Assembly: GCF_014837065.1 (NCBI RefSeq)
Contig: NZ_JACSPP010000002.1
Coordinates: 62,001 to 126,000 of the forward strand
Direction of reading: 5' to 3'
Length of the DNA: 64,000 bases
DNA from: Phocaeicola intestinalis
GTDB lineage: Bacteria > Bacteroidota > Bacteroidia > Bacteroidales > Bacteroidaceae
This document shows, one piece after another, positions 10,411-62,858 of this stretch (positions within the stretch are counted from its first letter, which is position 1; each line of letters begins with the position of its first letter). Position numbers and translations under genes: made by a program. Below the pieces are notes generated by a model that saw nothing but the letters and a program-made list of their open reading frames with translations, did no database searches and was not told where the DNA came from.

Positions 10411-10546
10411 AGGTGACTAGGTACTAGGTACTAGGTGACGAGGTACTAGGTGACGAGGTACTAGATACCATTAGCAAAACTATTCAGAACCTTGTCACCT
10501 AGTCAACTTGTCACCTAGTACCTAGTCGCCTAGTCACCTTGTCAAC
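10411..10546. repeat. Inverted-arm element built from TAGGTACTAGGTGAC words
   Basis: Left arm 10411-10464 repeats AGGTGACTAGGTACTAGG; right arm about 10490-10546 carries the inverse words CTTGTCACCTAGT several times. The centre (about 10465-10489) is short. This is the whole gap between the glutamine synthetase and the next gene, and its right arm shares TATTCAGAACCTTGTCACC with the element before pheT. Confidence 0.8.
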
Positions 10547-10562
10547 TATAAAACAGACCAAA

Positions 10563-58002: not shown

Positions 58003-60084
58003 CTATTTGAAACGGGACGTATCCACCGCTTCCCGACGCTTCTCCTGATAGCCGCCGAACTTCCACGTAAACGACAAGCCTACGGAACGGTAGCACGAAT
58101 AATCGTTCGTCACCCACTGGCGGGCGATGCGGATATACGGGTCGATGCCCGCGGTCTCGAAAATATCCTTGCACCAAACCGAGAGGATGCAGTTCTTGCC
58201 GGCGAAAGCGTAACGCAACGCTACGTCCACATTCCCGCTGGCAGGCAAATCGTACGTGCCTTGATGAGCTTTGCTGCGCACGAAACCATTCAGTGTCAGA
58301 CGCAAGTCCGGACGAGTGGAAAGCGTAACTGTATTGTTCCACACCGCCATGCCGTAAGCGATGCGCCGGTCGAAAGGCATATCATAGAAGTCGGCGTCTT
58401 TCTCGCGCGTCCATACGCCTATCAGCGTCAGGCGCGAGTCGAGCCATTTCTTTATCTTGAACGGAAGGGAAGCCTGAATGCCCGCCTGACGCTGGAAATC
58501 AAAATTCAGATAACGGTAAATCTCCACCAAGCGTTCGGGCGACTGGTAAAGCGTCTGCGTGGCATAATCTTCCGTATGACTGAACCAGGCAGAAAAGATA
58601 TACTTCGATTTCAAGACATACACCAACCTCACATCGTAATCTTTCGAAGGCTTCAGCAACGGATTGCCCTGCACTTCCGAATAACCTCCGCCCAGATAAG
58701 ACACCGCATCCTGCACCGCCCAGTAACCGGGATAACGCTTGTCGCTGCTGAAAGAAAGCTGCACGATATGGCTGGCGGAAGGTTTATACGTAGCCGTCAG
58801 ATTCGGATACCAACTCCATTCGTCCCACACCGGAGTCCGGTAACGCTCGGCTGCAAGCGAAAAGTCCACCGACAAATCTTCGCCGAACGACTTGCTGAAG
58901 CCCGCATATACGTTCAGCGTCTGTTCCCTCCGGCGCGAATCCATGTCCGAAGGCAATCCTTCATTCCCCGAATAACGCTGGTACGAATTGTCCACACTCG
59001 TAGAATACACCACTCCATAGTTCAGTCCCCAGCCGTGCTTCAGCTGATGTTCTTGCGACACGTAGAACTTCCAGGCATTGATGCGCTGCGCGTCTTCGGT
59101 ATAAAAGTCCATGTCCGTCTCCTCCATTTCGCTGGCGAGACGCTGGCTGCCTGGCGCATGATACCATGTAAACTCTACGCCTGCCTTCAGCCCGAACGGA
59201 ACCTGATAATCCAACCGCCCATCGTGAAGCCATGATTCCTGATTGCCCAAGGTCGTTGCAGTCTGTGTGCCCGTAGTATATTGGTTATAATGGCTGGTAT
59301 CGTAACTCCCATTATAGACAAAGCCCAGCGTATGATTTTCGGCAAACCGGTAATCGGCGCCGAGGCGGAACGTATGCGTATGGTTCCGTCCGTGCCCCCT
59401 CTCGTGGTTCCGGACAGAATAAGCCTCACCCTCCGCCTCCTGCCAGTGGCGCGCCTCTTTGTCGGTCGTGTTGTAACTCTCGCCGTGCGTATGCGAATAA
59501 AGGAAATCCGCCGAAAACTTCCCTCCATTATATAATAAGGAGGCACGCTCCTCGAACGAAGCTTCGTGCCGCTGGTCATACTTGGCGAACGCTTCGCCCT
59601 GCACCGAGCCGGGGTCGCCGATGCGGTGGCGCAGGCGGACGTTTATCAACGCACCCCTCACCTGATAGCGCGCCGGAGCATTGTACATCACTTCCACCCG
59701 CTCGATACGGCTGGCAGGCATTGACTTGAGCAACGAATAAAGTTGTCCGGCACTCATATTCGTCACTTTCCCGTCCAGCACGACGGTCACGCCCCGTGCG
59801 CCCAACGTCAGCCCGCCGTTCATCTCCACCACACCCGGAAGTTCCTTCAAGGCATCATATACATTGTCTATCGGTTTCTGTGCTATCATCCGCGGCAGGT
59901 CGTATTCCAACCTCCCCGGCAATGCCTTGACCACGGGGCGTTCGCCTTCCACCATCACTTCGGGCAAAGCCTGAAACAAGCTGTCCGTCTGCACGTCGCC
60001 CGTCAATAAACTATCTGCTGCTTCTTGTGCCGGAAGCCCAGCTCCGAAAGCTGCCAGCCCGATAATCAAAATCATTCGTTTCAT
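58003..60084 (-). CDS. TonB-dependent-receptor-like outer-membrane barrel (OMP_b-brl_3 type)
   Basis: 693 residues from the ATG at 60084 (MKRMILIIGLAAFGAGLPA, signal peptide). No carboxypeptidase-like leader domain; the plug-like part (about 40-150) has EVMVEGERPVVKALPGRLEY, NVYDALKELPGVVEMNGGLT and MPASRIERVEVMYNAPARYQ. A large barrel follows, ending in ...GLSFTWKFGGYQEKRREAVD. Such proteins lack a certain TonB box and may import or sense a ligand. It is divergent from a histidine kinase/response regulator pair and may be their target; phased TTACCG boxes lie between. Confidence 0.88.
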   Translation of the reverse strand: MKRMILIIGLAAFGAGLPAQEAADSLLTGDVQTDSLFQALPEVMVEGERPVVKALPGRLEYDLPRMIAQKPIDNVYDALKELPGVVEMNGGLTLGARGVTVVLDGKVTNMSAGQLYSLLKSMPASRIERVEVMYNAPARYQVRGALINVRLRHRIGDPGSVQGEAFAKYDQRHEASFEERASLLYNGGKFSADFLYSHTHGESYNTTDKEARHWQEAEGEAYSVRNHERGHGRNHTHTFRLGADYRFAENHTLGFVYNGSYDTSHYNQYTTGTQTATTLGNQESWLHDGRLDYQVPFGLKAGVEFTWYHAPGSQRLASEMEETDMDFYTEDAQRINAWKFYVSQEHQLKHGWGLNYGVVYSTSVDNSYQRYSGNEGLPSDMDSRRREQTLNVYAGFSKSFGEDLSVDFSLAAERYRTPVWDEWSWYPNLTATYKPSASHIVQLSFSSDKRYPGYWAVQDAVSYLGGGYSEVQGNPLLKPSKDYDVRLVYVLKSKYIFSAWFSHTEDYATQTLYQSPERLVEIYRYLNFDFQRQAGIQASLPFKIKKWLDSRLTLIGVWTREKDADFYDMPFDRRIAYGMAVWNNTVTLSTRPDLRLTLNGFVRSKAHQGTYDLPASGNVDVALRYAFAGKNCILSVWCKDIFETAGIDPYIRIARQWVTNDYSCYRSVGLSFTWKFGGYQEKRREAVDTSRFK

Positions 60085-60152
60085 CGTATTTCCGTTTTTG
60101 TTTGATACGGCAAAATTCGGCATTTCCCGCGGAATCCGCCTTATCTTCCGTC

Positions 60153-60190
60153 TTACCGAGTGTTACCGGAAGTGTTATTTAGTCTTACCG
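60153..60190. promoter_or_regulatory. Helically phased TTACCG direct repeats
   Basis: TTACCG at 60153-60158, 60163-60168 and 60185-60190, with a degraded TTATTT at 60174-60179; steps of 10, 11 and 11 bases. This is the layout bound by OmpR/PhoB-class regulators. It lies 28-65 bp before the kinase-operon -7 box and about 70 bp before the barrel gene. Confidence 0.55.
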
Positions 60191-60217
60191 TTTTCCGCAA
60201 GATTGAGCGGAAAGACC

Positions 60218-60225
60218 TATCTTTG
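60218..60225 (+). promoter_or_regulatory. -7 box (TATCTTTG) for the two-component operon
   Basis: Perfect TAnnTTTG match. Transcription would begin near 60232, at the first unit of the 41-bp array, giving a leader of about 410 nt. Confidence 0.6.
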
Positions 60226-60229
60226 CCTT

Positions 60230-60469
60230 GCGAAAGCTTCCCCACGGTGTCGGCAAGGAATTGCAGACCTGCGAAAGCTTCCCCACGGTGTCGGCAAGGA
60301 ATTGCAGGCCTGCGAAAGCTTCCCCACAGCGTCGGCAAGGAATCCCAAACCGGGAAAGCTTCCCCACGGCGTCGGCAAGGAATCCCAAGCTGGGAAAGCT
60401 TCCCCACGGCGTCGGCAAGGAATTGCAGACCTGCGAAAACTTCCTGCACGTTGCAGGAAGGAATCGCAG
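60230..60469 (+). repeat. Six tandem 40-41-bp units in the presumed leader of the kinase gene
   Basis: Units begin at 60230, 60271, 60312, 60352, 60392 and 60433 (period 41, 41, 40, 40, 41). Core: GCGAAAGCTTCCCCACGGTG, TCGGCAAGGAATTGCAGACC. Each has TTCC and GGAA 15 bases apart; the sixth diverges but carries TTCCTGCA-CGT-TGCAGGAA, a stronger hairpin. Units are not multiples of three, so no repeat protein is encoded. Confidence 0.9.
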
Positions 60470-60482
60470 AGAAAGAACAATA

Positions 60483-60612
60483 TGAATATCCGCAAACAGC
60501 CCATGTAGGGGCGTATCGCATACGCCCGAATACGCACACTTATCTACGTGGATGTTTTTCAGGGCGTATGCAATACGCCCCTACAGCTAATTGGGCAAAA
60601 TGCGGATATTCA
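60483..60612. repeat. TGAATATCCGCA-terminated double-hairpin element, copy C
   Basis: Ends TGAATATCCGCA (60483-60494) and TGCGGATATTCA (60601-60612) are perfect inverted copies; 130 bp, same length and direction as copy A, with the GTAGGGGCGTATCGCATACG pair inside. It lies in the presumed kinase leader, 30 bp before the ATG. Confidence 0.9.
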
Positions 60613-60642
60613 ATAAAAACAAACCTAAAAAAAGACCAACGC

Positions 60643-62145
60643 ATGAAACTGCCCCTGAAATACATCGCCCTGCTGGTCATCCTCTCGCTGGCGGGCGTAT
60701 TCGCCTACCAAGCCTATTGGCTGACCAGCCTTTACCGCACCCAACGGAGCGAAATGGAAAAGGACATCCGCGAAGCCCTGCGCACGAGCGATTACAACGA
60801 AATGATTGTGCGCGTCAAGAACCTGCAGAACGATTCGCTGGCACAAGCCGAAGTGACCGTCTCGACCGGATACGACGACGAACGGGCGTTCACGAAGACC
60901 CATACTATCCGCAGCGTCAAGTACGGCGACAGCACCCGCATCTCCATTTGGGAACACAGTGTAAAAGACACCGTCCCCGCCCCGCAAGCTGCCCTGCAAG
61001 CCGACATCGCCTCTATCCTCTTCGAAAACAAAAACTCGGCTGACGAACTCGCCTCCAACTTCCAGCAAGGGCTGCACGCCGCCATGGACGTACTGAGCGA
61101 TCCCGATTTCGCCGTCTTCGACAGCCTCTTAGAGACCGAACTTCGCCGCATCGGCATCCGCGCCCCTTACCGGCTGATGTACCTGCACCGGGGAAGCACC
61201 GTCGATTCGAGCTATACGTTCACCGACACGCTCAATGTCAAAAGCACCGGCGGTTACCTCCCTTCGCCGAAAGCCATTACCTACGATTACAGTTACGACC
61301 GGCACGGCAATTGGCTCTACCGGCTCACCTTAGAGCCTATCGAGAGCATCGTGCTCACCCAAATGGCAGGCATCCTCACCGCCTCGGCGCTGATACTGGT
61401 TATCTTGGGGCTTGCGTTCGGCTTCCTCATCCGCACCCTCCTGCGCCAAAAGACGCTGGAAGAAATGACAAGCGACTTCACCAACAACATCACCCACGAA
61501 CTGAAGACCCCCATCGCCGTGGCATACGCCGCCAGCGATGCCCTGCTCAACTTCGACTCCGGAACAGACCCGGCGAAACGCGCACGCTACCTGCGCATCT
61601 GCCAGGAACAATTACGGAGACTGAGCGGGCTGGTGGAACAGATACTCGGCATGTCAATGGAACGGCGCAAGACTTTCCGCCTGCATCCGGAAACCTTCGC
61701 GCCCCAGGAAGTCATCGCACCGCTCATCGAACAGCATAAGCTGAAAGCGGACAAGCCCGCCGGCATTACCCTCCGCATCGAGCCGGAGAACCTCACCGTA
61801 TACGCCGACCGCACGCATTTCAGCAACATCGTGAGCAACCTGCTGGACAACGCCGTGAAGTATTCGCCCGGCGAGGCACAGATTGACATAACCTGCCACG
61901 AAGACAACGGCTGGTTCATCCTCTCCGTCCGCGACCAAGGCATCGGCATCCCGCACGACAAGCAACGCCACGTGTTCGACAAATTCTACCGTGTGCCTAC
62001 CGGAAACCTGCACGACGTAAAGGGCTATGGGCTGGGGCTGTATTACGTAAAGACCATGACCGAGAAACACGGCGGAACGGTGGAAGTGAAGAGCGAACCG
62101 GAACGAGGAAGCGAATTCACGATTAAATTAAGAATGAAGAATTAA
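60643..62145 (+). CDS. Membrane sensor histidine kinase
   Basis: 500 residues from the ATG at 60643 (MKLPLKYIALLVILSLAGVF). Helix 1 (about 7-27), a periplasmic domain of about 205 residues without a recognised fold, helix 2 (about 236-263), then the H box with His285 in NNITHELKTPIAVA, and the ATPase motifs SNLLDNAVKYSPG (N), RDQGIGIPHDK (G1), FDKFYRVPTG (F) and KGYGLGLYYVKTM (G2). It would phosphorylate the next gene's product. The frame is open far upstream through repeats, but that extension is not protein-like. Its last codons and the next start come from a 14-bp duplication. Confidence 0.95.
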   Translation: MKLPLKYIALLVILSLAGVFAYQAYWLTSLYRTQRSEMEKDIREALRTSDYNEMIVRVKNLQNDSLAQAEVTVSTGYDDERAFTKTHTIRSVKYGDSTRISIWEHSVKDTVPAPQAALQADIASILFENKNSADELASNFQQGLHAAMDVLSDPDFAVFDSLLETELRRIGIRAPYRLMYLHRGSTVDSSYTFTDTLNVKSTGGYLPSPKAITYDYSYDRHGNWLYRLTLEPIESIVLTQMAGILTASALILVILGLAFGFLIRTLLRQKTLEEMTSDFTNNITHELKTPIAVAYAASDALLNFDSGTDPAKRARYLRICQEQLRRLSGLVEQILGMSMERRKTFRLHPETFAPQEVIAPLIEQHKLKADKPAGITLRIEPENLTVYADRTHFSNIVSNLLDNAVKYSPGEAQIDITCHEDNGWFILSVRDQGIGIPHDKQRHVFDKFYRVPTGNLHDVKGYGLGLYYVKTMTEKHGGTVEVKSEPERGSEFTIKLRMKN

Positions 62146-62155
62146 GAATGAAGAA
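62128..62155 (+). repeat. Perfect 14-bp tandem duplication at the kinase/regulator junction
   Basis: TTAAGAATGAAGAA occurs twice in a row (62128-62141, 62142-62155). The first copy encodes the kinase's final Met-Lys-Asn, the second gives the kinase stop (62143-62145) and the regulator start (62148-62150). Confidence 0.9.
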
Positions 62156-62858
62156 TAGAGAAGCAATAATCGATGTACTGCTGGTGGAAGACGAGGAGAC
62201 ACTCGCCCTTATCATCAAGGACACGCTGGAAGGGCAAGGCTTCGCTATCCGTTTGGCGGAAAACGGGGAAGAAGGAATCGAAAAGTTCTTCGACCAAAAG
62301 CCGGACGTGGTAGTGGCAGACGTGATGATGCCCCGCATGGACGGATTCGAAATGGTGCGCCGCATCCGGCGCAAGGACAAGCAGACACCCGTGCTTTTCC
62401 TCACGGCCCACTCTGCCACGAACGATGTGGTGGAAGGCTTCGAATTAGGAGGGAACGATTACCTGAAAAAGCCGTTCGGGATGCAGGAACTCATCGTGCG
62501 CATCAAAGCGCTCTTAGGACGGGCTTCCAACTATTCAGCCCCAGAAAAGCAAACGTCCGTAACAGAATTCGAAATAGGCAGGTACCGCTTCAACGCCATC
62601 ACCCAACGCCTCTCCTACCTCGGAAACGAGACCGAACTTTCTTACCGCGAAAGCGAAATCTTGCGCCGCCTCTGTGAAAACCGGAACGAAGTGACCCTGA
62701 TGCAAGACATTCTGATTGAGTTATGGGGCAACGATACGTTCTTCAACCAGCGCAGCCTGCACGTATTCATCACCAAACTCCGCCACAAGCTCTCGCGCGA
62801 CGAGCGCATCCGCATCGTAAATGTCCGAGGCATCGGGTACAAACTCATCATCAACTGA
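62148..62858 (+). CDS. OmpR/PhoB-family response regulator
   Basis: 236 residues. Receiver domain (about 8-125) with DVLLVEDEETLALI, phosphoacceptor Asp58 in VVVADVMMPRMDGF, LFLTAHSATNDVV and the lysine of DYLKKPFGMQEL; a winged-helix DNA-binding domain follows (about 138-235: RLSYLGNETELSYRESEILR, RSLHVFITKLRHKLSRDERI, VRGIGYKLIIN). It starts two bases after the kinase stop. Candidate sites are the phased TTACCG repeats before the operon. Confidence 0.96.
   Translation: MKNREAIIDVLLVEDEETLALIIKDTLEGQGFAIRLAENGEEGIEKFFDQKPDVVVADVMMPRMDGFEMVRRIRRKDKQTPVLFLTAHSATNDVVEGFELGGNDYLKKPFGMQELIVRIKALLGRASNYSAPEKQTSVTEFEIGRYRFNAITQRLSYLGNETELSYRESEILRRLCENRNEVTLMQDILIELWGNDTFFNQRSLHVFITKLRHKLSRDERIRIVNVRGIGYKLIIN

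Follow-up and report, generated by a model that had tools for sequence, protein, structure and literature searches.

Genes of the DUF6261 family (PF19775) are usually preceded by a tandem array whose unit length and symmetry are constrained and whose sequence is free. Among 73 distinct DUF6261 loci whose upstream sequence could be used, 61 have an array of period 40-43 bp just upstream. Most of these arrays are mutually unrelated in sequence; as a set they are two-fold symmetric about centres spaced by half a unit. This pattern upstream of DUF6261 genes, in which geometry is fixed and letters vary, fits no kind known to us and is the main finding. One array of this kind lies in front of a sensor kinase gene in the window, a stretch of 64,000 nucleotides of Phocaeicola intestinalis DNA (genome G000; Table 1). 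The best explanation of the window array, a candidate whose chances we put a little short of even, is that it is a solo copy of the repeat kind found upstream of DUF6261 genes and would work at the level of DNA through a trans-acting factor.

Tandem Repeats Finder (TRF) reads the window array with a period of 41, 6.0 copies, 86% matches and a score of 321. The unit spacings are 41, 41, 40, 40, and 41, and the six 41-bp units of an earlier note on this DNA are thus real. Three bases separate the array from the TATCTTTG box, which resembles the -7 box of Bacteroides promoters. With a transcription start 6-7 nt past this box, the predicted leader of the kinase gene, whose ATG is at 60643, would be about 410 nt long. 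Farther upstream of the kinase gene, at 60151-60189, there are spaced TCTTACC/TGTTACC/TGTTATT words, which are present in relatives too; they look like candidate response-regulator sites between the kinase gene and a divergent outer-membrane gene. Elsewhere in the window, the other TRF row of period 30-60 is a 31-bp, 1.9-copy reading of an 8/16-bp repeat (10489-10548), and adjoining short tandem repeats of AGGTACTAGGTGAC and ACCTAGTC types, apparently mutually inverted, occupy 10411-10548.

Table 1. Features at the kinase locus (window coordinates)
Feature	Positions	Strand	Basis or remark
-7-like promoter box TATCTTTG	60218..60225	+	kept before the array in G000, G001, G017, G084
Array of six 40-41 bp units; solo member of the DUF6261-associated kind	60229..60470	+	TRF, relatives
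Hairpin H1, unit 1: CCCAC-GGT-GTCGG	60241..60253	+	one C-C mismatch
Junction hairpin H2, units 1/2: TTGCA-GACC-TGCGA	60261..60274	+	
Hairpin H1, unit 6: CTGCA-CGT-TGCAG	60444..60456	+	unit orthologous with G001, G084
Copy C, 130-bp palindrome of a dispersed family, distinct from the array	60483..60612	+	BLAST, fold z -11.3
Sensor histidine kinase gene (HisKA, HATPase_c)	60643..62145	+	
Response regulator gene (Response_reg, Trans_reg_C)	62148..62858	+	

The units are not all alike. Units 1-5 of the window contain a TTCC..GGAA pair and unit 6 contains an 8-bp hairpin, TTCCTGCA-CGT-TGCAGGAA. The TTCC..GGAA pair is not general in the repeat family, in which the kept helices are the 5-bp hairpin H1 and a second helix, H2. 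The C-C mismatch of the unit 1 H1 stem (CCCAC/GTCGG) recurs in units 2-5. G000, G001, and G084 have closely similar final units in their kinase arrays (similarity 0.93-0.95). The earlier note held that unit 6 had diverged and gained a hairpin; the direction is the reverse, unit 6 being of the old type and units 1-5 carrying the mismatched stem.

In four genomes the array precedes the orthologous kinase gene, with 6 units in G000, 6 in G001, 7 in G017, and 2 in G084. The perfect -7 box that had been noted before the array is present, and the order of box, array, and ATG is kept in all four. The number of units, through which the earlier note supposed that kinase output might be tuned, differs between species. 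In all eight of the more distant orthologues (G024, G027, G031, G010, G035, G025, G002, and G011), a word of the TATCTTT/TATTTT type is followed by 5-25 nt to the ATG; the strict TAnnTTTG box occurs in G035 and G011 only, and the words of the six others, read by eye, end in A or CG. Because the distance from box to ATG is so short in the distant orthologues, the array lengthened the predicted leader, and a transcribed leader is plausible; transcription of the kinase-array leader would follow from the box. An array in four related genomes, together with short leaders in eight distant ones, suggests that the lineage leading to these four acquired the array between box and ATG, probably before the species split. 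In G027, an unrelated 41-bp hairpin array (L054:3768-3963) lies directly past the stop codon of the orthologous response regulator gene. This array and the kinase-leader array are two different arrays at one operon in different lineages.

The leader of about 410 nt in the earlier note also included copy C. The family of this element, which starts GTAGGGGCG, has 78 BLAST matches in its own genome, with both strands of the palindrome counted. Copy C begins GTAG, as read by eye, and the array itself is without that start. At the kinase site copy C is present in the window genome only, being absent in G001, G017, and G084, and thus it is a separate insertion and no fixed part of the leader. The leader proposed in the earlier note stands in part: the placement of the array between box and ATG is conserved, with short leaders in the distant orthologues. 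A different palindrome with the same layout as copy C sits past the DUF6261 array of G084 (L128). In one paper (PMC3733652), GTAG repeats are reported for Proteobacteria, Cyanobacteria, Chloroflexi, and the PVC group, and CGTC repeats for five phyla including Bacteroidetes.

The repeat family of the kinase array (the kinase-type subfamily) recurs at many further sites in both G017 and G001. Matches to a covariance model built on its unit occur in 4 of 61 genomes of the genus and in 7 of 399 of the family, in searches that scored the best candidates per genome (93 in the genus search and 14 in the family search), so that absences are not firm. Two of the matching genomes, G362 and G369, belong to another genus; G175 and G389 have weak single matches and were not counted as members of the subfamily. 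In total 30 places were examined, including L081 and L121 with about one unit only. Four are the kinase sites, six lie directly upstream of DUF6261 genes (L069, L074, L077, L123, L128, and L131), and the remaining 20 have other neighbours, their settings being sense, antisense, or convergent. The model orientation of L123 and L124 is reverse, and these two were turned by eye. Of the 116 ORFs neighbouring the 30 places, those that match the kinase or its regulator (BLASTP, E 0.001) all belong to the kinase sites, and by this measure none of the other 26 places is beside a two-component gene. A device dedicated to the kinase is therefore rejected, and the earlier note had itself named the occurrence of the array at sites unrelated to two-component genes as a refutation. 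The single unit of L081 (2990-3040, G001) is within another palindromic repeat (GTCACGCCGGATT...AATCCGGCGTAA). A search of plasmids and phages by blastn found no such array, and an array pattern that fits only some unit types gave 0 matches in genome and viral contig collections.

The recurrent neighbour of the array is DUF6261 (E 1.8e-27 and 3.7e-23). Homologues of the window array lie upstream of DUF6261 genes in G001, G017, G084, and G369, and not in the window genome. The close DUF6261 subfamily has 17 matches in 12 chosen genomes, none of them in the window genome, and the Pfam model has 39 matches in 12 of 121 genomes. The idea that the window genome is without any DUF6261 was dropped, since the Pfam model finds one distant copy there, which has a different array. 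This array in turn has a solo relative of 4.3 units on another contig (74-76%). Distant DUF6261 paralogues likewise carry arrays of unrelated sequence.

Two sets of loci make up the count. In the first, 33 of 44 usable loci (of 46) have an array of period 40-43. The second was collected by protein similarity; its sources are Phocaeicola coprophilus, Bacteroides sp. An322, Caecibacteroides pullorum, Parabacteroides gordonii, and several MAGs. It has an array at 34 of 36 usable loci, with a period of 41 in 6 and 42 in 28, and no other array of period 30-60 within those loci. Seven loci common to both sets were counted once, and ortholog pairs such as L133/L134 and L179/L180 were counted apart. 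An array was counted if it ended at most 450 nt upstream of the start, with DUF6261 starts chosen by script, and loci with less than 150 nt upstream (L173, L177, L215, and L216) were excluded. The 61 arrays have periods of 42 (37 arrays), 41 (16), 40 (7), and 43 (1). The 58 control loci (193 kb), which were earlier matches and not a random draw, contain two arrays of period 30-60, which TRF reads as three rows; one of these arrays, in G027, is of the same hairpin type. The 12 DUF6261 loci without an array are L139, L145 (= L186), L150, L155, L156, L158, L165, L168, L171, L175, L178, and L182. G096 has 16 DUF6261 matches, and L165, L168, L171, and L175 are those without an array among its loci examined. 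At L199 (Bacteroides sp. An322) the DUF6261 frame stops at 62 codons, yet a 4.4-unit array is upstream. Clustering of the nearest ORFs revealed no common neighbour gene of DUF6261.

Within the 50 nt before the array, a strict TAnnTTTG box is present for 8 of 58 DUF6261 arrays; among 406 control windows, 10 have it (p = 0.0006). Half of the eight (L133, L134, L154, and L199) represent one homologous promoter. In 6 of the 58, the box follows the array and precedes the gene.

The symmetry of the arrays is evident in several measures. Complementarity around the best centre averages 0.783 in the 61 arrays and 0.685 in shuffled units (sd of the mean 0.010); around the opposite centre, half a unit away, the values are 0.520 and 0.383 (sd of the mean 0.014). 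Judged one by one against 95% of their own shuffles, 23 of the 61 arrays pass at the best centre and 29 at the opposite one; the two-fold symmetry is a statement about the set of arrays, not about single arrays. By a stricter hairpin count there are 6.5 paired bases versus 3.1 after shuffling, and 55 of 61 arrays are above their own shuffled mean, with five arrays lacking a hairpin at this setting. In 17 of the 24 arrays with two hairpins, a distance of 19.5-21 bp separates the hairpin centres. Four turns of B-DNA span 42 bp, and the symmetry centres would therefore lie about two turns apart.

Within the kinase-type subfamily, the H1/H2 helices are better kept than expected from shuffled units: 93.2% of cells are paired versus 77.9%, 80 double-sided cells are seen versus 27.9, and the covariation score is 0.433 versus 0.178, values that none of 500 shuffles reached. 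Two of the five covariation measures are not above the shuffles (double-change pairs, 8 versus 6.8; pair types, 15 versus 15.5). RNAalifold prefers H2 as an outer stem; in 19 informative units, junction pairing is better in 12 and the outer stem in 6, with one tie. By its period, its homologues upstream of DUF6261 genes, and its two symmetry centres, the window array belongs to the DUF6261-associated kind.

Conserved H1 stems with compensatory changes would also be expected of the structured leader RNA proposed in the earlier note, in which the output of the kinase would be tuned through unit number or translation, or else through RNA stability. The conserved -7-like box just upstream, the short leaders in eight relatives, and the strong RNA fold of the window array (z -3.95) agree with such a leader, as does the sense orientation of the four kinase arrays and of all DUF6261-linked arrays of the subfamily (L123 having been re-oriented by eye). 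Selection on sense RNA, however, should leave more G-U than A-C mismatches and a sense strand that folds better. In 44 arrays there are 54 G-U and 49 A-C, some of these mismatches stemming from units with indels; 13 arrays are richer in G-U and 9 in A-C. Three-unit tilings of the 61 arrays fold with a mean of -46.4 kcal/mol for sense and -46.6 for antisense, versus -36.5 for shuffled units, and the more stable strand is sense in 31 and antisense in 30 (p = 0.98). In the window array the antisense strand, with a z of -5.33, folds even better than the sense strand. Solo arrays are often antisense or between convergent genes, and the six Rfam matches of the region 59400-61400 (E up to 5) remain far under their gathering scores. 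The parity of G-U and A-C and the equal folding of both strands rule out selection for sense-strand RNA structure as a general claim, and the hint in the earlier note that structure is kept is, for RNA, not supported on the same grounds. A symmetry without strand preference favours a symmetry of DNA, or a mutational process, over sense RNA; an RNA role at single genes may remain. On balance, we regard the RNA leader as quite unlikely.

Sequence appears to pass between arrays. Although the last unit of the G001 kinase array is orthologous to those of G000 and G084, units 1-5 are not nearest to the other kinase arrays. Compared with 18 other arrays, they are nearest to DUF6261-linked arrays of G084 and G001 (0.88-0.93). 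Arrays thus seem to exchange sequence, and passage between arrays seems the simplest reading of these similarities.

Units apparently copied between loci are also what selfish or neutral repeat DNA would produce, in which palindromic units slip, amplify, copy between loci, and are mended by template switching, the kinase copy having no function. Such an origin is somewhat unlikely in our estimate, but several observations suit it. Solo arrays occur in sense, antisense, and convergent settings without strand preference, stems are homogenised within arrays and different between them, and a base pair is broken in units 1-5 of the window. Moreover, sites are empty in sister genomes: the syntenic intergenic region of an array shared by G001 and G084 is without an array in G000 and G017. 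For the murI array of G017, the flanks are on different contigs elsewhere, and no clean empty site was obtained. Selfish DNA fails to predict a fixed period of 40-43 bp across unrelated sequences, or placement upstream of one protein family at 61 of 73 loci, and all four genomes of the genus that have the repeat family retain the copy at the kinase.

The predicted model of the DUF6261 protein (32 sequences; mean pLDDT 88.6, pTM 0.65) consists of ten helices and a disordered acidic tail, and the mean net charge is -7.4 for the body and -12.5 for the tail. Foldseek finds nothing at E 0.001 in PDB or BFVD (best E 0.082), and the best match to a LemA protein by VIA-align (Z 9.0, 116 residues) is within the usual range for helical bundles. 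No convincing match was found in NCBIfam, PADLOC, or PHROGs. With an acidic body and tail in the predicted model and no significant fold match, DUF6261 looks unlike a simple DNA-binding protein, and since its acidity speaks against simple DNA binding, a partner protein is kept as a possibility. DUF6261 paralogues of one genome (L179-L214) have a common C-terminal tip past the acidic tail, and the tips differ between genomes (for example SDDGEL, GGSPL, GGLAG, and ESPDPIV). In the searchable open-access literature, DUF6261 turned up only in work on Streptococcus oralis. No description of such arrays was found in the Bacteroidetes/Bacteroides tandem-repeat literature covered by the search, outside of which lie most subscription papers and preprints.

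Several known systems resemble the arrays in part. Like REP/RAYT systems, they comprise palindromic repeats dispersed between genes, a gene family beside the repeats, and copies elsewhere in the genome; unlike them, DUF6261 arrays are tandem, their period is 40-43 bp, their letters are mostly unrelated, and the partner is DUF6261 rather than a Y1 enzyme. If a resident transposase had spread a REP/REPIN or MITE family, its copies would likewise be dispersed, palindromic, intergenic, and variable between species. We consider this very improbable, given tandem units of fixed period without spacers and the lack of a Y1_Tnp (PF01797) match at E 0.001 in the window genome, a profile that does match in 5 of 14 control genomes. 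In addition, DUF6261 matches no transposase family in Pfam, and there is none among its NCBIfam, PADLOC, and PHROGs rows. Operator or iteron arrays upstream of a regulator share the tandem symmetric sites and the spacing of nearly whole DNA turns. Here, however, the letters change freely under a kept symmetry, solo copies lie elsewhere, and DUF6261 is acidic and without a recognised DNA-binding domain. Minisatellites (VNTRs) also have head-to-tail copies, variable in number between species and homogenised within an array, but DUF6261 arrays have one period and one symmetry across mostly unrelated sequences and one protein family. Riboswitches and attenuators resemble the window array in its predicted place between promoter and kinase ATG; they differ from an array that has no strand preference, no Rfam match above cut-off, and sites that are not leaders. 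CRISPR arrays are also regular repeats with palindromic parts, whereas the window units run head to tail at 40-41 bp without spacers.

The explanation that we prefer, a DNA-level solo copy acting through a trans-acting factor, would run as follows. The array kind has a unit of 40-43 bp and two symmetry centres half a unit apart, and its letters may differ freely from gene to gene. Its usual place is directly upstream of DUF6261 genes, with solo copies in intergenic DNA elsewhere, one of which would have been gained between the kinase promoter and ATG before the four species split and then kept with 2-7 units. A trans-acting factor, perhaps DUF6261 or a partner, would recognise the spaced symmetric units, acting first at its own gene (autoregulation) and then, through solo copies, at other genes such as the kinase. 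Counted against this scheme are the acidic character of DUF6261 and its lack of a significant fold match, a full array in the window genome, which has no DUF6261 of the close subfamily, the 12 loci without an array, the strict TAnnTTTG box at only 8 of 58 arrays, the shuffle limits of single arrays, and the two covariation measures at shuffled level. A broader proposal, which we consider unlikely, is that DUF6261 and the arrays form a new two-part system, in which a non-transposase protein (or its partner) would work on arrays defined by geometry and not by letters. Each DUF6261 gene would have its own array; solo arrays would trade sequence with that array and place host genes, the kinase among them, under the same factor.

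DUF6261, a family of gut bacteria whose function is unstudied, has in these arrays a near-constant companion, free in its letters and constrained in unit length and symmetry. The companion offers a strong handle on what DUF6261 does, and a case in which recognition of DNA by its geometry can be tested. Solo arrays, if they carry regulation, would be a means of connecting further genes, in this instance a sensor kinase, to a control that already exists. Should they be purely selfish, they would be a striking example of concerted evolution in which symmetry is retained and sequence is not.
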